The position numbers and the translations under genes are program-made. A stretch of 64,000 nucleotides of DNA from Spongilla lacustris (lineage: Eukaryota; Porifera; Demospongiae; Spongillida; Spongillidae). This document shows positions 2,678-25,710 of this stretch, piece after piece; the stretch's first letter is position 1; every line of letters begins with the position of its first letter. The DNA is taken from positions 6,282,253-6,346,252 of the forward strand of contig OX442429.1 in NCBI GenBank assembly GCA_949361645.1. Reading direction: 5' to 3'. The notes beneath the pieces were generated by a model. That model made no database searches. It saw only the letters and a list, made by a program, of their open reading frames with translations, and was not told the origin of the DNA.

Positions 2678-2738
<61 letters not shown>

Positions 2739-9066: not shown

Positions 9067-9189
9067 ATGTTATTCATGCGCCGCAAACACGAGGGTGTGG
9101 CAACAGTGGCAATAACAAAGACCGATCGCAATGGAAGGCATACGTTCACTACCGTAAGGCACTGTGCACATACTGGTATATCTACTAAC

Positions 9190-9303
9190 ATAGTTTCAAT
9201 CTATCCTAGATGGTTTCTTGGGGAAATTTCTGGAGATACTGCCGCTACCGTTCTTAAAGCCAGTGGAGATGAGAACAACTTTGTGGCGTACAAGCATCCT
9301 TCC
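9190..9303 (+). pseudogene. Possible SH2-domain fragment, cut by the inverted repeat
   Basis: The peptide PRWFLGEISGDTAATVLKAS followed by GDENNFVAYKH resembles the start of an SH2 domain, which binds phosphotyrosine: the W-(Y/F)-x-G-x-(I/L)-S start, a helix, then G-x-x-x-x-F-x-x. The arginine expected in the FLVR motif is not present. The reading frame runs into the repeat starting at 9304 and stops. It may be an exon interrupted by an insertion or an unrelated ORF. Confidence 0.3.
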
Positions 9304-9852
9304 AGCAGTAGTAATAAGGGGGTGTAACCCCACAATAATCCAAAGTGGTACCTGGGAGCCCTCCCCGGTCTGGCAAACCCTTATAACCTAGACGGGTAGA
9401 CCCTCCGGGACCCGACGTCGATTAGAGGCTTCTATCTATAACTCGATAAAACCGCCGGTCTCCGGATCGCTACAAAGCATGATTGAGGGGCGTTAAAAAA
9501 TTATTATCGCTACGATCCCAATTTGTTCATTTGAAGCGAAAAATTTTTAATTTTATCCCAATTAATTTTTATAAAAAAATCGCTTCGCAAAGTTGAGAAA
9601 GATTTTTTACATAGGGTAGACTACGAGAGGCTATCTATGATGTGCATAGTCTATTAATGCTGTAAAACCCCCTGAGAAAACCCCCTGAGAAAACCCGATG
9701 AGAAAACTGCCAAATAATCTATTGCAAGCATTTTGTAGTACATGATTAATAGCTTCTCAGGCTCGTTGGTTAATAGTAGATTGCGGCACCGGGGAGGGCT
9801 CCGCAGTACCACTTTGGATAAGGTGAGGTTACACCCCCTTATTACTACTGCT
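9304..9852. repeat. Inverted-repeat pair at the left edge of the virus-like element
   Basis: Arms at 9304-9369 and 9788-9852 are inverted copies. Arm 1 begins agcagtagtaataagggggt. Arm 2 ends with the complement, acccccttattactactgct. Both contain ccaaagtggtac and the ccctccccggt core. Identity is roughly 85% by eye. About 420 bp of AT-rich noncoding DNA separate the arms. The outer ends start with AG, as many Polinton termini do. This could be a small independent element, a duplicated or inverted terminal repeat, or the left end of the virus-like element. No clear target-site duplication was found. Confidence 0.75.
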
Positions 9853-9907
9853 TGACATTTTGTACCAGCAGAAAAATTATAAAATCACTACGTGGTAGCT
9901 GGGTCAT

Positions 9908-10480
9908 TAAACCGGACACCGGTGAGATACCAGAGCTGACAAGCAGCAGGGTATGGGCATGCTGCCCATTTGGAGTCTACGATAGAAGGCTTTGCGGAAA
10001 ATTGATAAAAATCGGACATTGGTCAGATTCCAGCGCCGACAAGCAATTTTGGAGTAACACGATAGAAGGCTTTGCAGGAAATTGATAAAAATCAGACACC
10101 GGTGAGACACCAGAGCTGACAAGCAGCAGGGTATGGGCAGCATGCCCATTTGGAGTGTACGATAGAAGGCTTTGCAGGAAATTGATAAAAATCAGACACC
10201 GGTGAGACACCAGAGCTGACAAGCAATTTTGGAGTGTACGATAGAAGGCTTTTTGGAAAATTGATAAAAATCGGACACCGGTGAGATCACAGCGTTGATA
10301 AGTAATTTTGGAGTAACACGATAGAAGGCTTTGCCGAAAATTGATAAAAACTGGACACCGGTGAGATCACAGCGCTGATAAGTAATTTTGGAGTAACACG
10401 ATAGAAGGCTTTGCAGGGTATGGGCAGCATGCCCATTTGGAGTGTACGATAGAAGGCTTTACAGGGTATGAGCTTGCAGC
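9908..10480. repeat. 80/100-bp tandem repeat array upstream of polB
   Basis: The marker caccggtgag (or a variant) recurs at about 9917, 10017, 10097, 10197, 10277 and 10357, giving spacings of 100, 80, 100, 80 and 80 bp. The shared unit contains gatagaaggctttgcaggaa and attgataaaaatc. The longer units carry an additional block, gggtatgggcagcatgccca, which holds the palindrome gggca-gc-atgccc. The array ends about 65 bp before the polymerase start codon. A replication origin, enhancer or subterminal terminal-repeat region are possible roles, none shown. Confidence 0.85.
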
Positions 10481-10546
10481 CAATGTGCGGACAATTTTTA
10501 TTTAAAGAATTCTTGAGTAGTATATATTATATCTAAAGCTGGAGCG

Positions 10547-13500
10547 ATGCTCACCGTAACCGAACACATTCAGAAGCTCAAAAAGTTGGCCGCAAATGAC
10601 AAGATCCCTAGTGATCTTCGTCAAGCATTTTTAAATGAGATAAGTGATTTGGAAAGCGTTATAGAGAAACCAGTTGTTGATCACCCATTGCCGCAATTTA
10701 ATAAAAAGCAACCTAAAAAGCGAGACATTATGGATACATATTTAGTTGGTAAGGATAAGCAAAATGTGAGGCAACAAAAGAAAACTGAGAAGTTACATTA
10801 TAAGAATCTTAAAAGAGAAACAATTAAAAATAATGGTATGGATTTCAAATTGACAAAAGATCATAATTTGTTTGCAAGATACTCTATAAACTTTAAACAT
10901 TTTAATAATACTTTTAGGTATGCTCATAATGATACAATGGAATTTATTAAGCCAAAGTTAAACACATTGTTGGAAGAAAAGATGACAGATTTTAAGTCTC
11001 TTAAGGTCAACGTAACTTTGACTGCTACTTTTGTTAAAAAATCATTTGGGGAAATGTTGGTAGATGGTGTTAAAGTAGAGCTGAAGGAAGATGTAAAAGT
11101 GGCATATCTCAGAACAAAGACGCAAGTTTGTGTAAATAATGATGATATTAAATATGCTGTTGATGAATGTATAAGCGAGTTGTTAGAAAAGATTGATGAA
11201 TTTACAAATTTGGGTAGTAACTGGGTATTTAAGCATGCAGATCGAATTGATGTAGGAATAACTAAATACAAACCAATGAGAGGTGGAAGTTATATAAAGA
11301 CTCCTGATTATGTACCTCATAGATGTGTCATAAATGTAGTTAATGATGATGAACAATGTTTTAAATGGTCAATATTAGCATCACAATTTCCACCTGAGAC
11401 ACATCCTGAAAGAGTTAATCAATATAAACAATATGAAAATAAGTTTAATTTTAGTGGAATTAGCTACCCAGTAGAGATAAAAGGTATTAAGAAATTTGAA
11501 GCCCAAAATCCAACTTTATCAATAAATGTGTTTGGTTGTTATGCTGATACTTTCCAAGGAAAACAAAATTTTGAAATTTATCCTATACATATTTCAGAAA
11601 AATATAATGGAATTGAACATGATAAAATGATAGATCTTCTATTGATAGAAGGTAGACATTATGTATGGATTAAGAATTTCACAGGAATTTGCTTCAGATT
11701 GACGAAACATAATGCTAAGAAATTTCCATGCAGAAGATGTCTCCATATATGTTATACTGCAGAAAAACTGCAAAGCCATATAAAAGAATGCCGAGGCATT
11801 TCAAAGGCACCGGCAAGAGTTAAACTTCCAGCCCCAAATACGTTTTGTCAATTTTATGAATATGGTATGTGTATGAAAGTTCCATTAACGATTCATGCAG
11901 ATCTTGAATCATATAATAAAACTACTAATAAACAATGTGGTGAACGAACCGTACAAATTGGGGAACAAGATGCAAACTCTTATTGTTATACTATGGTCTG
12001 GAGAGATGGCAGAAGAGAAGGTCCGTTTCTATATAGAGGTGACTCACCGGTACCTCATTTTCTACAAGAATTAAAGAAATTATCATATCGAGTAAATAAA
12101 ATCTTTGCTAATATAAAACCAATGATAATGACTGCAGAACAAAGTATAACACATCAAGCTGCAACACAATGTTATTTATGTTCTAGTGGTTTTACTCCTA
12201 AAAATAAGAAAACTGCTCATCATGATCACTTGAATGGTTTATATGAGGGCCCTGCTTGTAATAACTGTAATCTGAAAATGAGAATTGTACCAGGCGAAAC
12301 AAAGATACCTGTCATATTTCACAATCTCCGAGGATATGATTCCCATCTATTATTGACAGAAATTGGTAAAGTAACTGATGATTTAACTAATATAAGTTGC
12401 ATCCCGAATAATATGGAAAAATACATGTCATTTAATATGGGTCAATTTCAGTTCATAGATTCTTATCAATTTATGCAAGAATCTCTAGATAATTTAGCTA
12501 AAAATCTTTCTGATGATGAGATGGTACACACAAAAGATTATTTTATGAATACTTATAATGAAGAAATGTATAACCTTATGAGGAGAAAAGGTATATATCC
12601 TTATGAATGGGTTAACAATAAGGAAAAGTTTGATAGCACTGAGTTGACTCCAAAGGAAGCATTTTATAGCAGGTTATCTAGAACAAATATAACAAATGCT
12701 GATTATGATCATGCTAAAAAGGTTTGGGAAAAATGTGGATGCAAAAACTTTGGCGATTACCACGATCTATATCTCATAACTGACGTGATGTTATTAACTG
12801 ATGTCTTTGAGACTTTCAGAAATATGTCCATGAAAAATTATGGTATCGATCCGGCTTATAAATTCTCAACTGCTGGTCTATCTTGGTCAGCAATGTTAAA
12901 ATCTACTCAAGTAAAATTGGAACTACTTTCTGATTATGATATGCACCTGATGTTTGAAAAGGGAATACGCGGTGGCATTTCTACCGTTTGTGCAAAGAGG
13001 CTAATGGAAGCTAATAACAAATATTGTAAGAATTTTGATCCCCAAAAGTTGACAAAATATTTAATGTATTTGGATGCTAATAACCTATATGGTTGGGCGA
13101 TGATGAGAAAGATGCCCGATGGCCAATTTAAATGGATTACTATGAATTTGGAACAAGCATTAGTTAACATTAAGAATACTAATTTTGATTCTGATTATGA
13201 ATGTATTTACGAAGTAGATCTAGAATACCCTAGCGAGTTGCATGACCTTCATAATGACTATCCGTTGGCTCCACAGCGAATGAAAGTTAAAAAAGATGAA
13301 TATAGCCCGTGGCAACTTGAGATGGCAGAAAAGATTGGCAATAATTTAACAGAATATGAAAAGCTTATACCAAATCTTAACAATAAGGATCATTATGTTG
13401 TACACGGCCAAATTTTGAAACTATATCTAGAATTGGGAATGAAACTTACAAAGGTTCATAGAGCTATTCATTTCCACCAGGCCTCATGGCTTAAACCCTA

Positions 13501-14503
13501 CATAGAACAAAATACAAATCTTAGAAAGAAATCAAAGTCAGATTTTGAAAAGAATTTCTTTAAACTTATGAATAATGCTATCTATGGGAAAACCATGGAG
13601 AACGTACGAGGAAGAGTTAATGTGGAATTGGTGCATGCTAATAATAATGAAAGAATGCAAAAATTGTTAAATAGTCCAAACTTTGATTACATGAAAACGT
13701 TTGATAATGACTTAGTTGCTATGCACATGTTTAAGACAACTGTACATTTAGTTAAGCCAATTTATGTAGGAATGGCAATTCTAGATCTCTCAAAGTATTT
13801 GATGTATAACTTCTGGTATAATCATATTAAGAAAATTTATGGAAATAAAGCCCAACTTTTATATACCGATACTGATTCTTTTATATACGAAGTAGAAACC
13901 GAAGATGTTTATGCTGATATGAAAAAGAATGACTCATATTATGACTTTAGTGAATATCCCAAGAACCATCCTTGTTATAACCCTGCTAATGCTAAGGTGC
14001 CAGGATTGTTCAAAGACGAGTCCTGCGGCAGACCAATGACAGCTTTTGCTGGAATAATGTCAAAAATGTATGCATTTACCCGGGATCCTTTTGAGGATGA
14101 GGAAGTTAAAATAATTAATGATAAAGAGGTCTATGTTAAGAAAGATATAAATGTTGAAACTATGTCTGAAAAAGATTTGAAAGGATTGTCTAGCGATGCT
14201 GCCAGGAAGCATACCGTCAAGAAGATTAAGGGTGTAGGAATGGTTGTTGTAAATATGGATGTTGGTTACGAAATGTATAAAGATTGCATTTTGAATGGCA
14301 CTGAATATAGCTTTTCTCAAACCGTATTAAGAAGTAAAAGCCATAAAATTGGTGTATACGAACAAACCAAAAAGGCATTATCTCCGTTAGATACTAAGAG
14401 ATACATACTCGACAATGGTGTTGATACCCTGGCTTTTGGTCATTATAAAATAAAAGAAGCTGCATTGCAAGCTGTGGACGACTTCTTCCAAAATTTCGAC
14501 TAA
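10547..14503 (+). CDS. polB: Protein-primed-type DNA polymerase B, viral/Polinton class
   Basis: An intact 1318-aa ORF that would replicate the element. The 3'-5' exonuclease motifs are present: Exo I D452/E454 in IHADLESY, Exo II N593 and D598 in HNLRGYDSH, and Exo III Y742-x3-D746. The polymerase motifs are also present: motif A D843 in LDANNLYGW, motif B K1006-x3-N in KLMNNAIYGK, and motif C D1108/D1110 in YTDTDSF. Between the exonuclease blocks lies an endonuclease VII-like zinc module: C542/C545, HHDH at 558-561, and C571/C574. Further upstream is a C2HC finger (C395, C398, H411, C415). Residues about 260-380 (C271 in DDEQCFKWS, H371 in GRHYVWI) may form a cysteine-peptidase-like fold, which is inference. 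The ATG at 10547 follows an AT-rich TATA-like stretch. All catalytic residues are intact, unlike the broken neighbouring genes. Confidence 0.95.
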   Translation: MLTVTEHIQKLKKLAANDKIPSDLRQAFLNEISDLESVIEKPVVDHPLPQFNKKQPKKRDIMDTYLVGKDKQNVRQQKKTEKLHYKNLKRETIKNNGMDFKLTKDHNLFARYSINFKHFNNTFRYAHNDTMEFIKPKLNTLLEEKMTDFKSLKVNVTLTATFVKKSFGEMLVDGVKVELKEDVKVAYLRTKTQVCVNNDDIKYAVDECISELLEKIDEFTNLGSNWVFKHADRIDVGITKYKPMRGGSYIKTPDYVPHRCVINVVNDDEQCFKWSILASQFPPETHPERVNQYKQYENKFNFSGISYPVEIKGIKKFEAQNPTLSINVFGCYADTFQGKQNFEIYPIHISEKYNGIEHDKMIDLLLIEGRHYVWIKNFTGICFRLTKHNAKKFPCRRCLHICYTAEKLQSHIKECRGISKAPARVKLPAPNTFCQFYEYGMCMKVPLTIHADLESYNKTTNKQCGERTVQIGEQDANSYCYTMVWRDGRREGPFLYRGDSPVPHFLQELKKLSYRVNKIFANIKPMIMTAEQSITHQAATQCYLCSSGFTPKNKKTAHHDHLNGLYEGPACNNCNLKMRIVPGETKIPVIFHNLRGYDSHLLLTEIGKVTDDLTNISCIPNNMEKYMSFNMGQFQFIDSYQFMQESLDNLAKNLSDDEMVHTKDYFMNTYNEEMYNLMRRKGIYPYEWVNNKEKFDSTELTPKEAFYSRLSRTNITNADYDHAKKVWEKCGCKNFGDYHDLYLITDVMLLTDVFETFRNMSMKNYGIDPAYKFSTAGLSWSAMLKSTQVKLELLSDYDMHLMFEKGIRGGISTVCAKRLMEANNKYCKNFDPQKLTKYLMYLDANNLYGWAMMRKMPDGQFKWITMNLEQALVNIKNTNFDSDYECIYEVDLEYPSELHDLHNDYPLAPQRMKVKKDEYSPWQLEMAEKIGNNLTEYEKLIPNLNNKDHYVVHGQILKLYLELGMKLTKVHRAIHFHQASWLKPYIEQNTNLRKKSKSDFEKNFFKLMNNAIYGKTMENVRGRVNVELVHANNNERMQKLLNSPNFDYMKTFDNDLVAMHMFKTTVHLVKPIYVGMAILDLSKYLMYNFWYNHIKKIYGNKAQLLYTDTDSFIYEVETEDVYADMKKNDSYYDFSEYPKNHPCYNPANAKVPGLFKDESCGRPMTAFAGIMSKMYAFTRDPFEDEEVKIINDKEVYVKKDINVETMSEKDLKGLSSDAARKHTVKKIKGVGMVVVNMDVGYEMYKDCILNGTEYSFSQTVLRSKSHKIGVYEQTKKALSPLDTKRYILDNGVDTLAFGHYKIKEAALQAVDDFFQNFD

Positions 14504-14529
14504 CTTATATATCTTCTTTATATATTAGA
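14502..14529. terminator. AT-rich hairpin after polB
   Basis: Directly at the polB stop, ctaacttatata pairs imperfectly with tatatattag across a short loop. It is the weakest member of the 3'-hairpin series in this element, and its right half overlaps the motif upstream of the next gene. Confidence 0.35.
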
Positions 14530-14530
14530 C
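14521..14530 (+). promoter_or_regulatory. Candidate promoter motif TATATTAGAC
   Basis: It lies 35-44 bp before the ATG at 14565. Similar motifs (ATATTAGAAAT or ATGTTAGAAAT) lie 31-45 bp before three minus-strand genes in the same element. This suggests a viral promoter element, by inference. Confidence 0.35.
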
Positions 14531-14564
14531 AGTAATATAGTGATAAGTATTACTAGACATAGTG

Positions 14565-15389
14565 ATGGCGCATCAACAACAAGTAAATGTGATGGCTGAC
14601 ATTATGCATCCAATGCAATTGCCGAAAAGAGTTGAGGGGGACTGGGTAAAGATATTTTGTGAGCAACATTTGGAAGCACTTAAAAATATTAATTTGGCAG
14701 TAAACTTCATGGAGCCATATATAAATGAAGCTACTAATGAACAATTGCAGCAAAACATTAAATGTCGAAGATGTAGTAAATATTGCCCAGAGGTAATGTA
14801 TGCTAACCTTAAACACGGTGAAGGTAAAAAATCTATATGTTGCATTTGCAGCAAAGATGAGCGTATAATACCTGCTGATGTTGTAACAGGAATAAAAGAT
14901 ATGGCTCGACGAATTCTCCAAAGAAAAAATGTTTATACCAATAGACTTACTAAATATACTTGCGAGTTATGTAATATATCAATGACAAATTCTGCGAAAT
15001 GTTCTCATGAAATTTCAAAACAACATACTGATAATCTAAAACTTAAAAGAGAAAGAGATGACCGTAATATATCTCATGAAGAAATAATTGGTGAATATGA
15101 GGTGCAAATTAGTAAACTAGAATTAGAAATTATAGTACTTGAAGATAAAATTACAGAATTTGAAGATATTAACGTAGAACTTGAAGATAATAACGCAGAT
15201 CTTAAGAAACAAGTAAAAGAATTTGAACAAAAAGTTGTAGAACGTGATGATAAAATATATACGTTAGAAACAGAACTTGATAGAGTACAAAATGAAGCTG
15301 ATCAATTTCGTCGCAAATACGAACAATTATTGGCAGCGAATAATAAGCCTAAGGTTGTAACAAGACCTAATTTTAGACGCTATAAGTAA
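14565..15389 (+). CDS. Zinc-finger and coiled-coil protein of the virus-like element
   Basis: 274 aa from the ATG at 14565, which is preferred over an in-frame GTG one codon upstream. The middle has a four-cysteine pair cluster (CRRCSKYC, then CCICSK). It is followed by a C2H2 finger of the U1/matrin type, CELCNISM...H...H with a cysteine-bearing loop (about residues 128-155). The C-terminal third is rich in E, K, L, I and D with heptad-like spacing (about residues 165-255), so it is a predicted coiled coil, ending in a basic tail. It may bind nucleic acid and oligomerise. No named family was recognised. It follows polB by 61 bp on the same strand. Confidence 0.7.
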   Translation: MAHQQQVNVMADIMHPMQLPKRVEGDWVKIFCEQHLEALKNINLAVNFMEPYINEATNEQLQQNIKCRRCSKYCPEVMYANLKHGEGKKSICCICSKDERIIPADVVTGIKDMARRILQRKNVYTNRLTKYTCELCNISMTNSAKCSHEISKQHTDNLKLKRERDDRNISHEEIIGEYEVQISKLELEIIVLEDKITEFEDINVELEDNNADLKKQVKEFEQKVVERDDKIYTLETELDRVQNEADQFRRKYEQLLAANNKPKVVTRPNFRRYK

Positions 15390-15824
15390 ATGACTTGTCA
15401 ATAAAAATAAAAATAAGTAGTTAGTTTTTTTTACTTTCCCTAATAAAAGGTTACCCATTTTTCATCTTACAGATGACCTTTGTTCATGTCTCAGACATGT
15501 TATTTTTGTCCATATTAAGGTGCGGACACTTCACCGGTAACCATGGGATAATTATTTTTTTACTCGGTATAAGGGAGGAAATCACAGCTGGTCCTAATCA
15601 TTGCTGGATACCTTCTGCCACCTCGCGATGGTCAGTTACCGAGAAACCCACATTATATTTAAAACAGCTTTAATATTTATATAGTATTGATATAAACACT
15701 TTGACCTTGTGGGTTTATATGGCTGCAGGGTATGTTCAAAAATTTATTATGATGTAATGCTAAATAGGTGTTTGGGTGGGGCGGCTAACCGCCCCCTTAG
15801 TGACTTAGCATTTTTTGTTTGAAA
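15390..15824. other. Intergenic region in the virus-like element
   Basis: No gene supported. It holds an AT-rich stretch, an aaacccaca/tgtgggttt inverted pair (about 15645-15715) and the strong hairpin at 15754-15811. Confidence 0.5.
15754..15811. terminator. Two-tier GC hairpin between genes
   Basis: The inner perfect stem is ggggcgg-ctaa-ccgcccc (15778-15795). The outer stem pairs aatgctaa with ttagcatt. It stands out in an AT-rich setting between the genes ending at 15389 and starting at 15825. It is one of a series of palindromes at gene ends in this element. Confidence 0.5.
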
Positions 15825-16364
15825 ATGGCAGTATCTCGAGTGACGGATGAGCTGGCTAAGAAAGAACGTATTGCTCAATGGGATAGACAGCGCGAGCTTA
15901 AACAAGATTTTCTGGATGGATTGCACGAATACGTGAAGCATTGCAGTGAAATGACGCCGAAACTGAAGGTATGCAAGTATTTGCAAAATCTTGTTGGAAA
16001 GACGCCGAACGAAGAAAACGAGAAGGAGTGGAAGAAAGAAGCGGGTCTTGATGCTTATGATTGTGGCAGTTCCAGGTCTAGCAGGGCATCGTCTCGAAGT
16101 TCTGGAATTAGCCTAACGCCAGCAAAACGACGACAAATTGCTGATCAGCTGCCTATGGCTGTGGATACTAGCTACCCGTATTATGCGGAAATGCAACCAC
16201 CAATGCAACCTGGGGTTTGGGACGGAGTGCCCAAAGAAGCTTCTAAAGAAGTTATATCTGATGATGTGAAGAGATCTGTGGAGCAAATTTTGGGGAAAAT
16301 GGATGAGTTTGGCGATATATTGAAGTCGCTCAACGGCCGTGTGCGAGATTTGGAAAATTTCTGA
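15825..16364 (+). CDS. Unknown protein with C-terminal coiled coil
   Basis: 179 aa from the ATG at 15825. The N-terminal half is charged and predicted helical (DELAKKERIAQWDRQRELKQ). A serine/arginine-rich linker follows (SSRSSRASSRSSG), then a P/M-rich segment, then a C-terminal helix with heptad pattern (VEQILGKMDEFGDILKSLNG). An SR-like linker and a C-terminal coil could suit a DNA-binding core or scaffold protein, but no family is recognised. A perfect palindrome overlaps its stop codon. Confidence 0.65.
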   Translation: MAVSRVTDELAKKERIAQWDRQRELKQDFLDGLHEYVKHCSEMTPKLKVCKYLQNLVGKTPNEENEKEWKKEAGLDAYDCGSSRSSRASSRSSGISLTPAKRRQIADQLPMAVDTSYPYYAEMQPPMQPGVWDGVPKEASKEVISDDVKRSVEQILGKMDEFGDILKSLNGRVRDLENF

Positions 16365-16383
16365 ACAATTTCATGAAATTGTT
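16364..16383. terminator. Perfect 20-bp palindrome at stop codon
   Basis: aacaatttcatgaaattgtt begins at the last base of the TGA stop of the gene ending at 16364. It is perfectly self-complementary. Confidence 0.5.
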
Positions 16384-16454
16384 GATTAACTTTGTGTGAT
16401 CGCAAGCCCAATGCTTAACTTTGATATTAAAATCAGTAAAAAATATAAAAAATC

Positions 16455-16595
16455 ATGGATATTTTGTCAAGGGTGCTTGCCGAGGATACGGCCAGAGTAA
16501 TTTTGGATTACTTTGGATACAAGGAGCTGTTAATACGTTTTTGGCTACGCGAGAAACTTGTTGTTCATTACAATATAAAAACAAAAAAAAACTAA
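16455..16595 (+). CDS. Small ORF, 46 aa, unknown
   Basis: Starts ATG at 16455 (MDILSRVLAEDTARVILDYF) and ends at a TAA at 16593-16595. The composition is that of a folded, helical small protein rather than random AT-rich DNA. No family assigned. It lies between the gene ending at 16364 and a convergent minus-strand gene. It is too short to be confident. Confidence 0.4.
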   Translation: MDILSRVLAEDTARVILDYFGYKELLIRFWLREKLVVHYNIKTKKN

Positions 16596-16649
16596 CTACT
16601 TAAATTAATATAATTATTTTAACGTTATTAGGCAGGGCAGAACGCTTAA

Positions 16650-16850
16650 TTAATGCAAATGCATTAAGGAATAAATATCAGCAGGAATATGCTTTATATT
16701 TTCGATATCAATATCGAAAATAGTATCAAATGAGGTTTTTATATAATCTGTATTAACAGTATAACTATTTGACGTTACTTTTATCTCCTTTTGTTCCTCA
16801 ACAGGAAAATCATCAAAAGCTGCGAATTCGGCGTTGAAGGTAGAAGACAT
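16650..16850 (-). CDS. Small acidic protein, 66 aa, unknown
   Basis: Begins with ATG on the minus strand (MSSTFNAEFAAFDDFPVEEQ). It is acidic throughout with no membrane segment or known motif. A candidate promoter motif lies about 37-45 bp upstream, matching those of two other minus-strand genes, which supports it as a real gene. Confidence 0.5.
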   Translation of the reverse strand: MSSTFNAEFAAFDDFPVEEQKEIKVTSNSYTVNTDYIKTSFDTIFDIDIENIKHIPADIYSLMHLH

Positions 16851-16885
16851 TTCTTGCTTTCTTGATATATTTTATACTAAATAAA

Positions 16886-16896
16886 TTTCTAATATA
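16886..16896 (-). promoter_or_regulatory. Candidate promoter motif ATATTAGAAAT
   Basis: Minus-strand ATATTAGAAAT sits about 36-46 bp before the ATG of the 66-aa gene. The same string occurs at the same distance before the 132-aa gene further right. Confidence 0.45.
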
Positions 16897-16937
16897 AAAA
16901 TTTATTTGACGCGTCAGAGCCTCAAGTAAAAAATTAT

Positions 16938-16956
16938 TAGGGGGCAACCCCCCATT
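16938..16956. terminator. GC hairpin ggggg-caa-ccccc
   Basis: A perfect five-pair G:C stem with a 3-base loop, extended by flanking attatta/taataat-type pairing. It is isolated in AT-rich DNA in the gap between two minus-strand genes. Confidence 0.5.
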
Positions 16957-17027
16957 ATTAATTAACGTATCATTTTTTTTTAGCTAAAGCGGGGTTTGGG
17001 ACTCTGACAGATATCCCTGCAGTGCCC

Positions 17028-17046
17028 AAGGGGTAAAACCCCTTTT
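17028..17046 (-). terminator. Hairpin aagggg-taaaa-cccctt at a gene end
   Basis: The stem-loop is directly adjacent to the minus-strand stop codon at 17047. On the plus strand it is followed by a run of T. Confidence 0.55.
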
Positions 17047-17445
17047 TTAGAATCTTAAGAGATATTCGAGGTTTCTATTAAGATAACTTTCTCTTGGGGA
17101 AACGTCATCTTTTATGTTGTAAATTTCTGACATATGTTCTTTAATAAGTATTGATTCAATAGCCGGATGAGCTGCCAAATATGCATCCCGTAGTTTTGTA
17201 GATTCATCAATATCTGCAAGTAATTTTTGTTCCTCATCCTTTAATGCTTGCAACAGCTTTGGGAATTTAACCCCATCGCAAGCAGAAATTAGCTTACTAG
17301 CAGTATTTAACGATTCATGTTGCCTAACAACATTAGAACACATTGTTCCATATTTGTATCTTTGATATTCAGGGGTTAGATTATCATTTATCAGGTCAAA
17401 AGTTACTCCAGCTTCCTCGGTGACTTGTATTTTGTCAGATGCCAT
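17047..17445 (-). CDS. Unknown helical protein, 132 aa
   Basis: The first in-frame ATG is at 17445 (MASDKIQVTEEAGVTF). A longer reading to 17493 would need a TTG start and would overlap the candidate promoter. It is predicted mostly helical (LLQALKDEEQKLLADIDEST) with no membrane segment and no family recognised. A hairpin follows the stop directly and a promoter-like motif precedes the start, so it looks like a complete viral gene. Confidence 0.65.
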   Translation of the reverse strand: MASDKIQVTEEAGVTFDLINDNLTPEYQRYKYGTMCSNVVRQHESLNTASKLISACDGVKFPKLLQALKDEEQKLLADIDESTKLRDAYLAAHPAIESILIKEHMSEIYNIKDDVSPRESYLNRNLEYLLRF

Positions 17446-17479
17446 TTTGTTTTCTCTCGTAATACTTTCTAGTAGAGAA

Positions 17480-17490
17480 ATTTCTAATAT
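17480..17490 (-). promoter_or_regulatory. Candidate promoter motif ATATTAGAAAT
   Basis: Minus-strand motif identical to that at 16886-16896, about 35-45 bp upstream of the ATG at 17445. Confidence 0.45.
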
Positions 17491-17641
17491 CAAAAAGTGA
17501 TTAACTTTTTCGCAATGTGAATATAAAAAAGTTGTTAGATTACTAGCTTATGATAGTTGGCTCAAGATTGCTCTAAATGCATTAGCATTCCCTGCGAGAT
17601 GCAGTGATTATCCACATTAGATAAATATCTATATATTTTGT

Positions 17642-18145
17642 ATGATAAGCACAGGAATGACCGAAATATACGAAGATAATTACGACGGTTGCAGTAAGGC
17701 TCAAGTGCTCGACTCTCAGGGCGTTTCTAGGACAGTTTTTATTCCAATGCATCTAGAGAAGTTGTATATGGATGCTAAAAAAGATTCAGATAGTTATAAT
17801 GATCATACTCCTAGATGCCTGGCTTGTACTGGTTACCTTAAAATGAGTGTTAGGCCAAGAATTGAAAGAAATGAGGCAAAAAAGATGTCTTACAGGGTTT
17901 ATGATCGTGTTATAAAATGTGAGAAATGCCTGAAAGCTTATCTTAAAGAGACTAGAACTTATTATGTTGTCAATTACTCAAAAGCTGAAATCCAACGAGC
18001 AAAAAGTTTGGGCATGCGATACGATGGTTACGTAAAATGCTGGTATATATTTAAAAGCAGCCCTATAAATAATCTAAAGCTAGCAGCAATACATTTTGAT
18101 GAAATAGATTATAGATCGTTGCTAGGCGATGGTTCAATGTTATAG
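17642..18145 (+). CDS. Zinc-ribbon protein with DUF5710-like C-terminus
   Basis: 167 aa. Residues around 60-105 hold two CxxC pairs (CLAC and CEKC) separated by about 35 residues, a zinc-ribbon arrangement. The following segment (YYVVNYSKAEIQRAKSLGMR, then YDGYVKCWYIF) resembles the DUF5710 pattern, a short domain with a (V/I)xYxEKxxAKxLGAxWD...KxWY signature often found with DNA-handling proteins. That similarity is from memory of the family and was not searched. Function unknown. It converges on the minus-strand gene ending at 18171. Confidence 0.6.
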   Translation: MISTGMTEIYEDNYDGCSKAQVLDSQGVSRTVFIPMHLEKLYMDAKKDSDSYNDHTPRCLACTGYLKMSVRPRIERNEAKKMSYRVYDRVIKCEKCLKAYLKETRTYYVVNYSKAEIQRAKSLGMRYDGYVKCWYIFKSSPINNLKLAAIHFDEIDYRSLLGDGSML

Positions 18146-18150
18146 GTGGG

Positions 18151-18172
18151 AAATCTGTCAGAATCCCCCCTC
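18151..18172. terminator. Hairpin between convergent genes
   Basis: gggaaatctg and cagaatccc pair with small bulges around a 1-2 base loop. The structure lies in the 25-bp gap between a plus-strand stop (18145) and a minus-strand stop (18171), so it could serve both transcripts. Confidence 0.45.
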
Positions 18173-18677
18173 ATATGAGATCAGAGGTTATACAGCCTGT
18201 ACTAATAATAGCGGCACTTTTTATAAATGTAGTTATATCATGTGATGATGCCCCATAAAATGATAAAGCTGTACCTCCAGCTATTGGAATATAATGAGTA
18301 CTAAGATCTAGAGGGGCGTTAGATAGGCCATAATTTTGGCCTAAATTTTTTTTGTAATATAATTCGCGAACTGCATTAGTTACGCCGCCCGCAGAACCAA
18401 ATAAAAATGGATCTTCTCCCAAGCTATAAGCCATTGCCCCAGAAACTATAGAAGCCAGGCCAATTTTTAGATAAACTGTTTTATCATTATCAAATTCTGG
18501 ATTTACAAAATTTGGATTTACATTTACTACATTACTATTTGATAAATTAGGACTAACTGTTATAGTTGTATCGATTTTTGGTTGAACAATATTTGTATTC
18601 GGTGCCGTGACTGATGCAGTGCTGCGGCTATTTGTAATTATTGTTGGTGAAGACGTTGATGACGATTGGTTACCCAT
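18171..18677 (-). CDS. Glycine/alanine-rich membrane-like protein with myristoylation signal
   Basis: 168 aa from the ATG at 18677. An upstream reading to 18695 would need TTG. The chosen start gives MGNQSSS, a good N-myristoylation consensus (G2, S6). A long S/T/N-rich low-complexity stretch follows, then two hydrophobic repeats: one near GLASIVSGAMAYSLGEDPF and one near IAGGTALSFYG ... SAAIISTG. The same two-repeat design appears in the proteins at 18952-19404 and 20529-21182. A lipid-anchored virion membrane protein is a reasonable inference. Confidence 0.65.
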   Translation of the reverse strand: MGNQSSSTSSPTIITNSRSTASVTAPNTNIVQPKIDTTITVSPNLSNSNVVNVNPNFVNPEFDNDKTVYLKIGLASIVSGAMAYSLGEDPFLFGSAGGVTNAVRELYYKKNLGQNYGLSNAPLDLSTHYIPIAGGTALSFYGASSHDITTFIKSAAIISTGCITSDLI

Positions 18678-18707
18678 ATTAGGCGCAGATATCAAATGTT
18701 ATCTCAT

Positions 18708-18719
18708 ATTTCTAACATT
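18708..18719 (-). promoter_or_regulatory. Candidate promoter motif AATGTTAGAAAT
   Basis: Minus-strand motif 31-42 bp upstream of the ATG at 18677. It is a one-base variant of the motif before the genes starting at 16850 and 17445. Confidence 0.4.
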
Positions 18720-18774
18720 AAAAAAAAGTTATCTAGAAGTGTCTATTTTTGCTTATCAGAAGTATTAACTAAAT

Positions 18775-18870
18775 CTATTTTTTCAAATATTTATCTATTT
18801 TCCTTAAAATAGGCAACGTATCGGGCATATCATATTCAAATTTGGCTTCGTCAAGACTACACTGATCCAT
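18775..18870 (-). CDS. Possible micro-ORF, 31 aa
   Basis: ATG at 18870 to TAG at 18775 encodes a short charged peptide beginning MDQCSLDEAKFEYDMPDT. It fills the gap between two minus-strand genes. There is no independent support beyond composition and position. Confidence 0.25.
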   Translation of the reverse strand: MDQCSLDEAKFEYDMPDTLPILRKIDKYLKK

Positions 18871-18928
18871 GGTTTGATATATTATTCCAATAAATAGTTA
18901 ACTTTTAGTTATCTCAGGCTGGGGGTTA

Positions 18929-18950
18929 TAGGGGGAAGGCTTTCCCCCTA
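18929..18950 (-). terminator. Hairpin agggggaa-ggct-ttccccct at gene end
   Basis: A perfect 8-bp stem directly adjoining the minus-strand stop at 18952. Confidence 0.6.
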
Positions 18951-18951
18951 A

Positions 18952-19404
18952 CTAGATGTCGGAGGTTGATTTATATTCCATGCTATTAAGCTGGCTGGAG
19001 ATAGCTGCTGATGCAGAGCTTGCAACGTCAAAGAACTTGCTGGATACAAAAGAAGGGTCGACAAATTTTAATACTATATCTGAGACCACTCCATACATGG
19101 CTCCTCTCAGGAATTCAGATTTTAGATCGCCGGCCTGTTCAGATGCTGATGCAACACCAGCGTAAACGGCTCCGGCAGTAGCAGCACCAACTGCATATGA
19201 TTGATAGCTCATAGGATTTGCAGACATTCCAGTAGCAATATCGAGTTTAGGTAGAAGTAAAGTTTTTCCATAGTAATCTCCCATACCAGCCAGAGCTGCC
19301 GTAACCAACCCTGCATAAGTATAATTATAACCCGAATAATAATCAAAACCGTAGCAGATAGCACTAGCTACGACTCCTTGTTTAACTGCTTGCATAAGCG
19401 ACAT
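18952..19404 (-). CDS. Glycine/alanine-rich membrane-like protein, two-repeat family
   Basis: 150 aa, ATG at 19404. Two hydrophobic blocks share a pattern of small residues, Tyr and a Gly-Asp or Ser-Asp near the end. The first runs around GVVASAICYGFDYYSGYNY to AALAGMGDYYG. The second runs around AVGAATAGAVYAGVASASE to GAMYGVVSDIVLKF. The tail is S/A-rich. The same design occurs in the gene products at 18171-18677 and 20529-21182. It probably inserts in membranes, with function unknown. Confidence 0.65.
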   Translation of the reverse strand: MSLMQAVKQGVVASAICYGFDYYSGYNYTYAGLVTAALAGMGDYYGKTLLLPKLDIATGMSANPMSYQSYAVGAATAGAVYAGVASASEQAGDLKSEFLRGAMYGVVSDIVLKFVDPSFVSSKFFDVASSASAAISSQLNSMEYKSTSDI

Positions 19405-19543
19405 TTTAGTATAACTTTTGTTAATAATATCGTTAATGACATTACATATTTAAATTAGGAAATTATGGCGCAATATATATTGTTTTAGATAATAGAGGGG
19501 TTAAAGATGATACCCTTCTAAATTCTAAAGAATTTTCCACCAA

Positions 19544-20568
19544 ATGAATGATGCAAGTATTAAAAAATTATTGCAGGATCGTCCAAAGCTGGAAAAACTT
19601 TGTGCTGATCTCAATATTAGCACGGCTGCTATTAAGCCATATAAAAGTGTCTCTAAGGCAACAGCTAAGAAAAGTAGCTCTAAGTCTATGTTGGATAGCT
19701 TATGTGTATCTGGAGGAAAACCAAAACCAAGCCATAAAATCAAAGATATTGCTGACCGACCTGCCGAAGCGAGCGATACCAAATCCTCCTATTCCTTTGA
19801 TGCCAACCCAAGAGAAACAAATCCTAGTTCCGATAAAAAAGTTACAGAAGGAGATAGAAAAGATGTTGAGGCTGGGAATGCTAAAGCATTCAGAAACCCC
19901 CCTAGAGAACTATTAAGATTTCAAATAAAACCTACAGCTATGATGATATTTGGCCCCCCAGGAAGAGGCAAAAGTTATTTATTAAAAAAGATGTTTTTGA
20001 ATCCACCAACCGACCCCAAAACTGGGATAGAACAATCCGCTATACAAATGATTGTAATTTTTACACCAACCTTTAAAGATTGGGAAGATGTACCTAATGC
20101 CTCAAAATGCCTAAGATCTTGGAGTATAGAAAGCATAAGATCATTAATGCAATATCAATATAATTCTGGGGGAAAAAATCATGTGGCAGTAATACTTGAC
20201 GACATTTTAGCAGTTATTAACTTTGACGACAAATTAATTTTACCAGACATAGACATTATAACATGAGCATTGTCATTTCTGCACAAAATATTACAAAAAC
20301 TATTCATAAAATTATAAGAAATATGATATCTATTTTCGTAACTTTTGATCTACCATCGTTAGAATCTAGTGACGCGGTATATAAAGCTTTTGGTGCTGAT
20401 GTATGGCCAAGTATTAATGCTATGTTTCGTGATATAAAATCGCTAAATTTAAGAGAAACTCATTCTTATGTAATTATAAGAGTTGGGGAGCCAGGTTATT
20501 CTGTAGGCACAGAAGAGGGGGAATTGGATCAAACAGTCCCTAAAGAGGAGGTATCAGAAGCGAGATAG
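19544..20568 (+). pseudogene. Genome-packaging ATPase (A32/FtsK-type), frameshifted
   Basis: The first ORF (19544-20266, 240 aa) has a K/S-rich N-terminal region, Walker A GPPGRGKS (residues 137-144) and Walker B VAVILDDI (D219, D220). The family's conserved downstream block, with the RHYN and SAQN signatures, lies in another frame. The SAQN part is in the ORF beginning at 20263. The two frames overlap in an ATGA at 20263-20266. The reading frame must therefore have changed between about 20225 and 20262. This gives one gene broken by a small indel, or an assembly error. I see no obvious slippery heptamer. In DNA viruses and Polintons this ATPase pumps DNA into the capsid. The 3' end overlaps the convergent gene by 40 bp. 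Confidence 0.8.
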
Positions 20569-21182
20569 TCTGTGGCAATACCAGCAGCAGAACTTATTAA
20601 TGAAATTCCTAAACTTTCTGCAGTGCCGATACCTAGATATGACATAATGCCAACACCTAATGCTGTTGAAGCAGCAAATGTAATAATTTGATTTTTTCCC
20701 CCAGATGGCAATACATCAGGAGGTGCATACTTGTCATAAGGATTTGGCATAGCGATTGATCCATTAAAATAATTTGCAACTTGATCACCAATTAAGTAAG
20801 AGATTCCTGAAATACCCGCTGCCATATTTGGATTATAATTTAGCATATAGCCTCCCGCATATCCCCCGGCCGCAGAGGATATTGTTGCCAAAATTGGTAA
20901 ATTAAAGTTACTTAATGTTCCTAAGCCTTTGCCATTGCCGTCTTGAAATACTGAATTGGGCTGATTAAAACCAAAACTCGGCGTTGCTGTTGTTGAAGAA
21001 CTTTGGCTAAATTTTTTACCTGACGAGGAATCATCTTGATCTAAACTTATATTTATGGGGTTAGTTATTATTGGACTGACTGTATTATTATTCGGAGAAT
21101 AATTTGATAAATTTCGAGTACTATTGTCTGTGGCATTATATGCCTGACTTAGCTCCTGTCTTGATGTATCTACAGTAACCAT
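20529..21182 (-). CDS. Membrane-like protein with N/S/T-rich head, two-repeat family
   Basis: 217 aa, ATG at 21182. The first ~90 residues are polar and low-complexity, rich in N, S, T and Q. They are followed by two hydrophobic Gly/Ala-rich repeats: one near ATISSAAGGYAGGYMLNYN to GISYLIGDQVANYF, the other near AASTALGVGIMSYLGIG to SSAAGIATDYL. This is the same two-repeat design as the products at 18171-18677 and 18952-19404. It diverges from the plus-strand gene at 21244 with a shared 61-bp intergenic region. Confidence 0.65.
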   Translation of the reverse strand: MVTVDTSRQELSQAYNATDNSTRNLSNYSPNNNTVSPIITNPINISLDQDDSSSGKKFSQSSSTTATPSFGFNQPNSVFQDGNGKGLGTLSNFNLPILATISSAAGGYAGGYMLNYNPNMAAGISGISYLIGDQVANYFNGSIAMPNPYDKYAPPDVLPSGGKNQIITFAASTALGVGIMSYLGIGTAESLGISLISSAAGIATDYLASDTSSLGTV

Positions 21183-21243
21183 TGTTTCTAGAGTGTATTT
21201 GAAATATGTATAAATAATTATATGTTAAAATACAGTTGAAAAA

Positions 21244-21606
21244 ATGGCAGCTATAGCGGTAACGCAAGGATTTAGTGCAGCAAATGGAGTTTATCAAAGC
21301 TCAATAGTTCAGGATTCTCTGGCACAGGGAGCTATTCCTCATCGAATGTTATATGCAGTTGTGATGGGAGGGGGCTCCTATCTTATTGCATCATTAGTAA
21401 TGTCAGGAGGCATTTCGGGATTAATTAGGGGTACTCAGGGAGCATTAGTTGACTCTTCACCAATCGGTTGGATTGTAAATCCATTTTTGAAAGGAAAAAC
21501 TGCTGGAGATTATATATCGGGAAATACCTCAAAAGGATTCTTTAGAGATAATGCACCAGCAATAGCAGGAGCAGCCGGAGCAATTGTCGGCTTTATGATC
21601 GGATAG
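21244..21606 (+). CDS. Small hydrophobic glycine-rich protein, 120 aa
   Basis: Starts MAAIAVTQGFSAANG. It has a hydrophobic segment around VVMGGGSYLIASLVMSGGIS and another at the C-terminus (AIAGAAGAIVGFMIG). Two candidate membrane segments suggest a virion or host membrane protein. It is related in composition, but not clearly in pattern, to the two-repeat proteins nearby. A GC palindrome overlaps the stop codon. Confidence 0.65.
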   Translation: MAAIAVTQGFSAANGVYQSSIVQDSLAQGAIPHRMLYAVVMGGGSYLIASLVMSGGISGLIRGTQGALVDSSPIGWIVNPFLKGKTAGDYISGNTSKGFFRDNAPAIAGAAGAIVGFMIG

Positions 21607-21620
21607 GGGGCTAGCCCCCT
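21605..21620. terminator. Perfect palindrome agggggctagccccct at stop codon
   Basis: A 16-bp perfect palindrome starting within the TAG stop of the gene ending at 21606. Confidence 0.55.
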
Positions 21621-21686
21621 AGGACCCCCTTTAGCTAACAAATAGAAAAAATAGATAACGTTTTAGTATCCTGAGACAGCGCCTAA

Positions 21687-24600
21687 ATGACGTTGAGAGG
21701 TAACGCTGGAAGATTGGTGCAAGGTGTTAATAATTTGTCAGGTTTTGTAAAATTAATCGAAGGACCTGGCATTGAAATTATACCAAATAATGCAAAAAAT
21801 TCGCTACAATTTGGTACGGTTACTGCTATGTTAGAATTTGACGATATTTTGGCAAATGGCGATTCTACCGCAAGATCAGCAAAATTTTTGAATAATGCAT
21901 CGGATACTATACCGGCACTTATTGTTCACAACACGTTAGATTTTGGTAACGGTGTAGTTAATCCAGGTGTTACATTGAAATATAGTCCTGGTACTCCAGA
22001 TGGATTAGTTATAGGTCCCACTACCGGAACTGATAAAAAAATATTAAGAAGCGACATAATTGGTGCAAATACGTCATCGGCAATTGCAGTAAAAAGTGGC
22101 ATGACTTTTGATACAGGCCTTATATTAACAGTTGACAACTTAGTTGCAAAAAGTGTAACAAATAATGGGGACATAACAGCTCATAGACTATTACCATATG
22201 ATGCTAATGGATTAACAATAAATTTGGATACTTGTACGATGACTTGTGCTGATACTGTTACAGATCCTAGAGTTAATATATATCCTGGATAAATTGCTTC
22301 GGGGCTATTACTGGTTCTGCTGGCATGACACTTACCGGGGATCTTATTCTTAATGGCATGATTACAACTCCATCATTAATAGTTCCTATTGATTTGACTT
22401 TAAAACCCTCAGGAGATGTTAGAGTTTTTAGTGGTAAAACTTTATTTTGTGACACTCTTAGTCAAAATAATACTAATAGTAATTTTAATATAACAGCAGT
22501 AGGTACTAATAAAAACATAAATATAAACCCCTCAGGTACAGGGCGCACATATTTTGGCGGTAGTGGTATAATGGTTGGATATATATCAAATTATTTTGGT
22601 TATGGTATTACCATTCAACCGGATGCAGGATCGATAAATTTACTTACTAATGTAAATGCTGCAAATATAACTGGGAATAATATTGTTACACCACCAAATA
22701 CAAATTTTAATATAATTCCTGGAACTAGCGGGGTAACAAATATAAATAGTAATTTGATAATTCGTGATAGCTTAACTGTTGATACTATAAATTCTAGAAC
22801 AACAAATAGTAATTTAGCTATAGCGGCTAATGGCACTGGAACTATAAATTTAAATTCACCTACAGTGGGAACTACTATAACTGCAACAACAATTACAGCT
22901 CCTCCTAGTACAAATTTAAATATAAATGCGCTAGGTGGTAGTATAATAACAAATGCAATACGATTAGCTCCTACAACTTCGTTAACAATTGCTCCTGCAA
23001 CTTCACTAACATTTACACCAGGATCGCCAGCTCAATTTAACTGCTCAGTAAACGTTGCAAATGATCTTACTGTAGCTGGTTCATTAAATGCAACTGGATT
23101 AACAAATACTATTACAAATGGCAATCTAGCTTTGGCTGCTAATGGCACTGGAACTATAAATTTAAATTCGCCTACGATTGGCTCAACTATAACTGCAGCA
23201 ACATTTACCGCTCCACCTCTATCAAATCTAAATATAAATGCTGCTGGTGGTAGTATACTTTCAAATGCTCTTAATTGGTCTGCTACTGGCGCATTGGGAA
23301 TAAATTCTGGCGGGACTATGACATTATGGCCAACAAATAATCAATGCATAATAGATGCTACTTTAACTGTGAATAGATCGATAATAGGTTCACGATTTGT
23401 AGGTACTGAATTTGTATCAAATGTGTTAAATACAGGTATAGCTTTATCTCCAAACGGTACAGGGCAGGTTAACGTTTTAGCAGGAAAAACGCTTACTGCA
23501 GACACTATAAGTTCTACAACGGCAAATGGAAATTTGATTTTAACTCCTAATGGAACAGGATCCCAAGTCCAAATAGCAACTGGTAAAACATTGGCTACAG
23601 ACATTATAAATACTAATACAGCCACTGCTATTGCAGTAAAAAATAATATGACTTTTGATGCTACAAAAACATTAACTGTTAATAATATTATTTCTAGATC
23701 TATTTCTAATAATGGTGACATAATATCATCAAGAATAGTAAATTATATAGCTGGTGGCTTAATAATCGATTTGGATAATTCTATTCTTTCTTGCAGTGAT
23801 ACAACGATACCAATTCTTATAGAACCCCACCTTCAAGTAGATGGCACATTAACTTGTACGTCTAATGCAATAGTTTTTAGCGGTTTAGCGACAACTACGT
23901 TAACACCATATAACTCAACTGGATTAACAATTAATTTAAATAATAGCACATTATCATCTGCAGTTCCCATAAACATAGGCTCTATTGTTGCAAATACTAT
24001 AAGTTCTGATGCTGCAACAAATTTGACCATAAATGCACCAGGAGGCACCATAAATACAAACGCAACTAACATCACTGCTTCAGGAGCATTGTCATTAAGA
24101 TCAAATGGCACCTTAAATTTACAGGCTTTTACCGGAAATAGTAGCATTAATATATCAGGTACTGGTTCTGGGGTTGTTAATATGTTAAGTCCATTGTTAG
24201 TAAATACTATAATTCCATATAATTCTGCGGACTTATCGCTAGCTGCCAGTGGTACAAATGGAAATGTCAGTTTAACTGCTACAGGCACTGGAAGTATAAG
24301 ATGTAATTCTCTTTTAAAAGCTTCAACAATAACTTCATTAGATTTATCAAATTTGACCATAAATACAGCAGGTGGCACCATAAATACAAATGCAACTAAC
24401 ATCACTGCTTCAGGAGCATTAACTTTAGCTACTACTAATGCGCGCTTGACACTTAATGCAGGTACAGATATAGTTATGACACCTTTAACTGGAACTATTA
24501 CTTTATCAACAAATAATGCCAATAATATAAATATAAATCCTGGAGGCCTAACATCTTTTGGTGGTAGTGGTATTAACTTACCAAATGGTGGTTCTACACT

Positions 24601-24940
24601 TAATTGGTATGAAGAGGCTACATTATCGAGTGCTTGGATAAATGTAGTAACTAGTACTCCAACAAATACCACAACTTTATATGTTGTTAGAATAGGAAAA
24701 CAAGTTTTTATTACATTAGTATCAAATAATCCTATAATGCCAACAACTGATATCGGTGTGCCTACAATGCAAACAAATTTAGTAAGCAAATATTCGCCTG
24801 TTGCTACATTCACTCAATTTAATGGAAGTTCATATTCTATTCAAATATCTACTGCTGGTGTAATAACATTACAAAATTTTGTAAATAGTGTTGCAATAAC
24901 ACCAATAATGAATTTTTCATATGTTACCGGCGGGAGCTAA
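21687..24940 (+). pseudogene. Long repetitive fibre-like protein, frameshifted
   Basis: Two ORFs form one repetitive protein: 21687-22292 (201 aa) and 22325-24940 (871 aa). The second frame is already open from about 22270 (peptide CFGAITGSAGM just before the second ATG), so a one- or two-base shift separates the parts. Repeats include variants of NLALAANGTGTINLNSP, TNTNATNITASGAL and TFD...LTVxNxxxxSxxNNGDI, the last occurring in both halves. Such Asn/Thr/Gly-rich beta repeats are typical of phage and viral tail-fibre or spike shafts. The C-terminal ~120 residues are non-repetitive (NWYEEATLSSAWINVVTSTP onward) and may be a receptor-binding head. The role in attachment is inferred. Confidence 0.7.
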
Positions 24941-24972
24941 GCCATAAAAAATTCTTGGGCTCTTAAGAATCT
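24941..24972. terminator. Hairpin after fibre gene
   Basis: attctt-gggctctt-aagaat forms a stem-loop at about 24951-24970, 11 bp after the stop codon. Confidence 0.4.
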
Positions 24973-25063
24973 AAATTCTAACCTAATATGCACATTAGTG
25001 CATAATTATTGACCATATTTTACTATATTAAACATAGAATCGTATTTGGGATATTACGCAATC

Positions 25064-25510
25064 ATGCCGAAACATAATGACGTTGGATCAAAGGCTCCAG
25101 AAGTTAATGAACTTACATAAAAAACTAGTGGACTTTTAAGCCCTAGTGGTTTAGCCCTAGCAGCACCCCAGGCAGCTACTGGCATTTTTAAAGAAAAAAT
25201 CTGGAATGCTAATGGTAATTTAGTAGAATATTTTGGTGTAAGACAAGCATTATATATTACAGATGAGCTAGCAATGGTACTTTATTTAAAATGGACAGGT
25301 TTAATACCTGCAGGTACAAGATTAAAACGCGCAGGTGATATAGATGATGATGATGGCGAATATGGCGATTTAGTAACAGGTGTAGAAATTGATGAAAGAG
25401 AAGTAGTATCTCAAATAAAATCTGCCAATCAATTATCAAAACATGAATTGACAACTGATGATATGTTATATTCTATGTCTAGAACAAAAAGTGGTAGACT
25501 TGCAATGATG
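25064..25510 (+). pseudogene. Unknown element protein, in-frame stop, truncated by gap
   Basis: ATG at 25064 (MPKHNDVGSKAPEVNELT) is followed by a TAA at 25118-25120. The same frame then stays open for 130 codons to the gap. It contains ANGNLVEYFGVRQALYITDE, an acidic DIDDDDGEYGD stretch and a polar helical end. It has no recognised family. Position after the fibre gene suggests a structural protein, by inference. The stop may be a mutation or a sequencing error. Confidence 0.5.
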
Positions 25511-25710
25511 NNNNNNNNNNNNNNNNNNNNNNNNNNNNNNNNNNNNNNNNNNNNNNNNNNNNNNNNNNNNNNNNNNNNNNNNNNNNNNNNNNNNNNNNNN
25601 NNNNNNNNNNNNNNNNNNNNNNNNNNNNNNNNNNNNNNNNNNNNNNNNNNNNNNNNNNNNNNNNNNNNNNNNNNNNNNNNNNNNNNNNNNNNNNNNNNNN
25701 NNNNNNNNNN
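25511..25710. other. Assembly gap (200 N)
   Basis: Exactly 200 N, a common placeholder for a gap of unknown size. The virus-like element ends at it on the left, and host-like sequence follows. The element's right end, and any missing genes, could be in the gap or on an unplaced contig. Confidence 0.99.

Follow-up and report, generated by a model that had tools for sequence, protein, structure and literature searches.

Adintoviruses are a proposed family of animal-associated, Polinton-related viruses that carry genes for a family B DNA polymerase (PolB), an integrase and a capsid. They are treated in PMC10120064 and PMC11244446, the former of which terms Polintons and adintoviruses largely synonymous. 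For Maverick-Polintons, PMC8097293 and PMC4028283 give a length of 15-20 kb and a terminal motif of (AGT)2 or (AG)3; a 6-bp target duplication is described for vertebrate Mavericks (PMC8097293) and an adenovirus-like cysteine protease for 74% of Polintons (PMC4028283). Here we describe a virus-like block at positions 9304-25510 of a 64,000-nt stretch of DNA, hereafter the window (C16:6282253-6346252 of the assembly labelled G000, 248.56 Mb in 51 contigs, whose scaffolds are given as C-numbers throughout). We are highly confident that this block belongs to a Maverick-Polinton-type animal virus, 26-28 kb long and probably hosted by a sponge: it comprises the left 16.2 kb of a single integrated copy, which has partly decayed and is cut by an assembly gap. 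This conclusion is carried by the gene order, the integrase, the terminal repeats and the target duplications.

Searching the genome with PolB gave at least 50 matches, fragments included, with 35 of 83 candidates scored; the groups and the survey of gene order given below rest on this search. Near copies, with 89-97% PolB identity, were found on C5, C4, C3, C25 and C10, a second group at 61-65% on C15, C1 and C4, and a third at about 45% on C25, C9, C24, C10 and C4. Four loci of the third group (C25:3051675, C24:4023707, C10:4676925 and C4:3496669) have open frames of 1685-1997 aa, far beyond the length of PolB, which may reflect a fusion at the N or C terminus.

Both ends were located for four copies, giving lengths of 26,713 bp (C5), 25,961 bp (C4), 25,998 bp (C3) and 27,713 bp (C25). 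Their terminal inverted repeats begin AGCAGTAGTAATAA and measure about 290 nt in C5, where both ends are identical, 441 nt in C4 (one difference), about 1020 nt in C25 (99.5%) and 391/411 nt in C3, and all four copies have 5-bp target duplications (TAACA, CAACA, CGTGC and AGCTA). The 95.1% identity of the C3 repeats was rejected as a sign of age: the 20 differing columns of 411 are a 20-base difference in arm length, and these repeats therefore show an indel. Past the last gene seen in the window, the right half of four copies encodes a 568-600 aa protein, then a 546-551 aa protein on the opposite strand (the capsid discussed below) and a 251-254 aa protein, followed further right by small proteins, an integrase (330 aa; 329 aa in C4; broken in C3) and a protein of about 200 aa. 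The C4 integrase matches the Pfam domain rve (2.2e-11), and a PDB search with it matched retroviral integrases; D-D-E is present in the integrase of these other copies.

We surveyed gene order at 19 loci with a one-piece PolB match of at least 690 aa. At 13 of them PolB is followed by the capsid gene, on the opposite strand, and the integrase, in the same order and on the same strands, with capsid identities of 88-100% (C5 3.79, C4 4.74, C3 7.20, C25 4.61, C10 0.93, C15 5.88, C1 21.8 and C4 6.24 Mb) or 51-52% (C25 3.05, C24 4.02, C10 4.68, C4 3.50 and C9 3.50 Mb). The six other loci include the window itself, which is cut, and C3 5.26 Mb, which has the same order but is broken. Of the remaining four, C1 1.3 Mb has PolB and the nearest capsid gene (47%) on one strand, and C21 4.07, C24 1.93 and C3 5.31 Mb have no capsid within 25 kb among the matches listed. 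Apart from these six, the order also differs at C1 9.24-9.27 Mb, where the PolB pieces are shorter. The capsid genes at C1:1.29-1.32 Mb and C1:9.24-9.27 Mb (46-47% identity) have a strand arrangement relative to PolB and integrase unlike that of the other loci; a third arrangement and nested elements are candidate readings.

The present elements share with Maverick-Polintons a B-type PolB of the DNA_pol_B_2 family, an rve integrase, a packaging ATPase, a predicted jelly-roll capsid with a probable penton adjoining its gene, long uninterrupted frames, terminal inverted repeats beginning AG, and purifying selection. They differ in length (26.0-27.7 kb versus 15-20 kb), in terminal motif (AGCAGTAGT versus (AGT)2 or (AG)3) and in target duplication (5 bp versus the 6 bp of vertebrate Mavericks). 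Unlike Maverick-Polintons, they also have a capsid for which only 16 sequence relatives were found, the named ones only in the sponge Ephydatia muelleri, a large fibre with exchanged ends, and no protease match in Pfam scans that covered 14 window frames and, from a single right half, 10 of 13 listed frames. With adintoviruses they share the animal association and the PolB, integrase and capsid genes, the difference being again that no protease was found in the frames scanned with Pfam. Because of the 5-bp duplication and the lack of a detected protease, we do not class the elements as canonical Mavericks. The family is a variant of the wider Maverick-Polinton group, Polinton-like in its working, and what is new here is its capsid family, its 5-bp duplications, the exchange of fibre ends and the fact that no protease was found in the scanned frames.

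The predicted model of the 551-aa protein gave matches dominated by double-jelly-roll capsid proteins, at low confidence and with the second jelly roll aligning loosely; we therefore regard it, with that low confidence, as a putative double-jelly-roll capsid. A PDB sequence search with it returned antibody-type chance matches only. The 251-aa protein encoded beside it is 82-98% conserved among eight aligned copies. Its own model (predicted local distance difference test, pLDDT, 39.8) is too poor to name a fold, and weak Foldseek matches to giant-virus minor capsid proteins and a MELD-virus protein were obtained; it is a probable penton. Capsid matches number 52 in the genome, and 17 of these are free of stops and span at least 530 of the 551 residues (11 at 88-100% identity, 6 at 47-52%), many of the remainder being fragments or containing stops. 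In the C5 copy at 9.37 Mb (L024, C5:9364000-9373999), an insertion of about 4.4 kb interrupts the capsid gene.

In the window, the element begins exactly at base 9304, the start of its terminal inverted repeat, and runs for about 16.2 kb to 25510, where the gap cuts it; the five bases preceding it are CTTCC. GC content per 1-kb step is 32-38% at 10001-25000 versus 36-51% in the flanks. Listed frames cover 86% of 10547-24940, and the longest stop-free stretch in 100 first-order Markov simulations of 10547-25510 was at most 169 codons. An earlier sequence-only reading had recognized here an AT-rich, virus-like block with PolB, ATPase, fibre-like, zinc/coiled-coil and membrane-like proteins on both strands, all of which are present, the last as small glycine-rich hydrophobic proteins. 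It had also held that no gap separates the block from host DNA on its left side, as is the case, and that it is partly decayed, in agreement with the broken ATPase and last gene of this copy. Like that reading, we found no integrase or capsid gene within 9304-25510. The features of the window copy are as follows.

9304-9593, + strand: left terminal inverted repeat, beginning AGCAGTAGTAATAA; 98.3% identity over 290 nt to both C5 terminal repeats.
9788-9852, - strand: the terminal repeat's first 66 nt, partially copied in inverted orientation within the element; 89% identity.
9909-10416, + strand: subterminal tandem repeats of about 80 nt (180 nt higher order); related repeats at the equivalent place in other copies.
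10547-14503, + strand: PolB, 1318 aa, intact; Pfam PF03175 (DNA_pol_B_2), 1.9e-15.
14565-15389, + strand: C2H2/coiled-coil protein, 274 aa; zf-met 0.066, below cut-off.
15825-16364, + strand: charged protein, 179 aa, function not assigned; first ~42 aa matched in the C5 and C4 copies.
17047-17445, - strand: 132-aa protein; open frame.
17642-18145, + strand: 167-aa protein; weak Pfam matches to a zinc ribbon (Mut7-C, 6e-4) and to DUF5710 (1.3e-4), neither reaching its curated cut-off.
18171-18677, - strand: Ser/Thr-rich protein with hydrophobic tail, 168 aa; C25 copy 96% identical over 134 aa.
18952-19404, - strand: glycine-rich hydrophobic protein, 150 aa; C25 copy 97% identical.
19544-20266, + strand: N-terminal piece of the packaging ATPase, with Walker A and B; Pfam matches of intact relatives are to Zot/Pox_A32.
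20263-20568, + strand: packaging ATPase, C-terminal piece in a different frame (gene broken); open frame.
20529-21182, - strand: glycine-rich hydrophobic protein, 217 aa; C5 copy 97% identical over 210 aa.
21244-21606, + strand: hydrophobic protein, 120 aa; 97.5% identical in the C5 and C25 copies.
21687-22292, + strand: fibre-like protein, 201 aa; 93% to C25 and 88% to C5, with additional matches of lower identity (44-46%) in the fibre region.
22325-24940, + strand: fibre-like protein, 871 aa, with internal repeats; called fibre by appearance, no Pfam match.
23200-24930, + strand: exchanged fibre module, by DNA identity to the copy at C4 6.24-6.26 Mb.
25274-25510, + strand: piece of the next (last) gene, cut by the gap; 79 aa remain here, as against about 240 aa for the gene in other copies.
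25511-25710, no strand: assembly gap, 200 N; expected to be followed by the remainder of the element, which measures about 10 kb in other copies.

We compared the window copy with its relatives gene by gene, outside the stretch 15900-18000. It is nearest to C5 in PolB (97%), the zinc/coiled-coil protein (96%), the 217-aa protein (97%) and the last gene (97-99%), and the affinities of its two ATPase pieces are mixed (C5, 81 and 88%; C25, 78 and 92%). The fibre end at 24600-24900 has 95-99% DNA identity to C25 and C3 and 47-61% to C5 and C4 4.75 Mb. Set against the copy at C4 6.24-6.26 Mb, the fibre shows 90-100% DNA identity in 16 of 17 100-nt steps (23200-24900) and 80% in the remaining one; the PolB of that copy is 61% identical, with 65-76% DNA identity in 300-nt steps over the part present. 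Identity to the same copy drops to 55-76% in the next gene; that gene has 97-99% identity to a pair of C5 copies and 44-68% to its 13 other matches. The fibre end and the next gene have different affinities and therefore moved as separate cassettes. Copies of this family have thus recombined with one another. PolB and fibre-tip identity are not correlated over seven loci (Spearman rho -0.44, p 0.33), which proves nothing alone; the window, subfamily B, loci lacking a long PolB match and C15, whose tip match falls into two parts, were excluded from the set.

Such a mosaic could also arise after integration, by gene conversion or by unequal exchange among copies in the host genome, rather than between co-infecting viruses. 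All the compared copies lie in one genome, and the scaffolds C16 and C4 could exchange sequence in the germ line. The exchanged stretch nevertheless stops near the 3' end of the fibre, and the following gene has other affinities, a pattern that speaks against conversion while still being compatible with it. We consider this explanation rather doubtful, although it keeps appreciable weight.

Selection was estimated by the Nei-Gojobori method as the ratio of nonsynonymous to synonymous substitution rates (dN/dS). Values were 0.021-0.092 in all 28 capsid pairs and 0.077-0.155 in 14 of 15 PolB pairs, with 0.33 in the nearly identical C3-C25 pair (dS 0.017). PolB and capsid are under purifying selection. 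The PolB genes of the window and C5 have a dS of 0.15 and the two ends of C5 are identical, so that most copies diverged before insertion, unless conversion homogenises the ends. With that same reservation, the copies would be separate insertions from a varied replicating population in which the capsid was in use. Low dN/dS in capsid and PolB might also reflect a gene set domesticated by the host, with capsid genes serving in defence, for example. The target duplications, the near-identical terminal repeats and the presence of several subfamilies at many unrelated places look instead like repeated new insertions, and constraint is seen in both genes tested, one for replication and one for the capsid, making domestication very unlikely.

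Capsid and integrase seem absent from the window copy because the assembly gap precedes their place in the other copies. The right half of the C5 copy has no match at window 25711-64000 and scaffold C16 has no capsid match among the matches listed, from which we conclude that the right half of the window copy is unassembled or lost. The sequence-only reading had proposed an unusual gene set from a little-known lineage; the lineage is indeed little described, but the lack of capsid and integrase is an artefact of the gap, since both occur in other copies. Many further copies of the family lie in the same genome. That neither gene was found in 9304-25510 would suit a distinct virus lineage of PolB, ATPase and fibre devoid of both, an idea with almost no chance of holding given that copies with 89-97% PolB identity carry capsid and integrase past the matching point and that C5 shares the terminal repeat. 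A contaminant or misjoined viral sequence, for which the scaffold gap at 25511 and the unseen right junction might speak, is scarcely credible in view of the gapless left junction, the matching 5-bp duplications around all four delimited copies on four scaffolds, which contradict it, and the related copies on many scaffolds, many of them broken.

Among the window genes, PolB has exonuclease and polymerase positions that are invariant or nearly so in a 25-row alignment. We take D452/E454, Y597-D598 and Y742/D746 to be its exonuclease motifs, and D843, N1009/G1014 and D1108-D1110 its polymerase motifs. Residues 531-576 hold an endonuclease-VII-like zinc motif (PF02945, 7.9e-5, just under its cut-off). 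PolB relatives with E<=0.001 numbered 6271 among 7992 scored candidates, and a PDB sequence search with PolB gave no match. The C2H2/coiled-coil gene also lies behind PolB in near copies, and has 32-33% identity in two copies with 65% PolB identity.

Four intact relatives of the ATPase were tested (299-341 aa); they match Zot at 7.4e-5 to 1.3e-4, above cut-off, and Pox_A32 at 2.8e-4 to 5.5e-3, below cut-off, an indication that the protein belongs to the packaging-ATPase superfamily. A reading of the ATPase relatives as two species was dropped, equal PolB lengths (1318 and 1228 aa) being among the reasons suggesting that most of them come from another assembly of the same species. The last gene has an in-frame stop 51 codons upstream in the window copy, where five other copies are open for 90-106 codons, and 14 of its 16 matches in the genome have open frames of 199-258 aa. 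As a capsid candidate it was rejected: at full length, in other copies, it reaches about 240 aa, and the capsid has a gene of its own. Pfam gave no noteworthy match for the fibre-like and most small window proteins, and PHROGs gave no function for any of nine window proteins tested.

Pfam domains were recognised in six out of nine flanking frames (SRCR three times, LON-substrate-binding, PHD, and the rve domain of another element), as would be expected of an animal; the SRCR and other exons mark the flanks as animal, and the capsid's named relatives suggest that the host is a sponge. The right flank holds an rve integrase fragment from a different transposable element (window 30515-31435), and nested inverted repeats with a 19-bp tandem repeat lie just right of the gap (window 26080-26330).

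We also looked for relatives among viral genomes. Searches of IMG/VR with PolB alone, the capsid alignment and the ATPase alignment returned no relative; the PolB alignment returned one locus, L001 (IMGVR_UViG_3300007522_001028; contig 3300007522_001028, 15.1 kb). Over the positions examined (1-13543), L001 resembles the present elements in its PolB (34% identity), its ATPase-like frame, its long fibre and its capsid-like frames, and differs in its 439-aa and 298-aa capsid/penton candidates, which have no significant match to the proteins described here. Its fibre is of the T4 gp36/S74-chaperone type, and its 146-aa protein carries what is presumably a phospholipase-A2-like motif. L001 is apparently a different Polinton-like virus. 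A full-text literature search pairing sponges and sponge genera with polintons, Mavericks and adintoviruses, with subscription papers outside its scope, gave no work on such elements in sponges among the matches listed.

Taken as a virus, the element most likely works as follows. Its integrase would insert the DNA and leave the 5-bp target duplication, and its own PolB would copy that DNA from the terminal inverted repeats, probably by protein priming. The A32/Zot-type ATPase would pack the DNA into an icosahedral shell of jelly-roll capsomers to form putative virions, on which the long fibre protein may be carried for attachment. Related elements meeting in one cell, plausibly through co-infection, would exchange fibre ends by recombination.

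What looked like a puzzling half element becomes a readable case of a virus family in an animal that is probably early-branching, with recent insertions and capsid genes under selection; it also illustrates that a gap in a scaffold can give an element of a known kind the appearance of a categorically new one. In its data, PMC10120064 reports cnidarian capsid genes as the sole metazoan ones outside the main Maverick-Polinton cluster. The present elements may contribute one more animal capsid family, whose named relatives are confined to Ephydatia muelleri. The fibre mosaic makes it directly testable whether Polinton elements continue to encounter one another and recombine as viruses. We tentatively propose, short of considering it established, that sponges have their own integrating, capsid-bearing Polinton lineage with a capsid family separate from those known in other animals, in which recombination in the same cell passes whole fibre ends between lineages about one third apart in polymerase DNA. 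If true, this would be modular exchange of receptor proteins, comparable to that of tailed-phage tail fibres, in a DNA virus whose hosts rank among the oldest animal groups.

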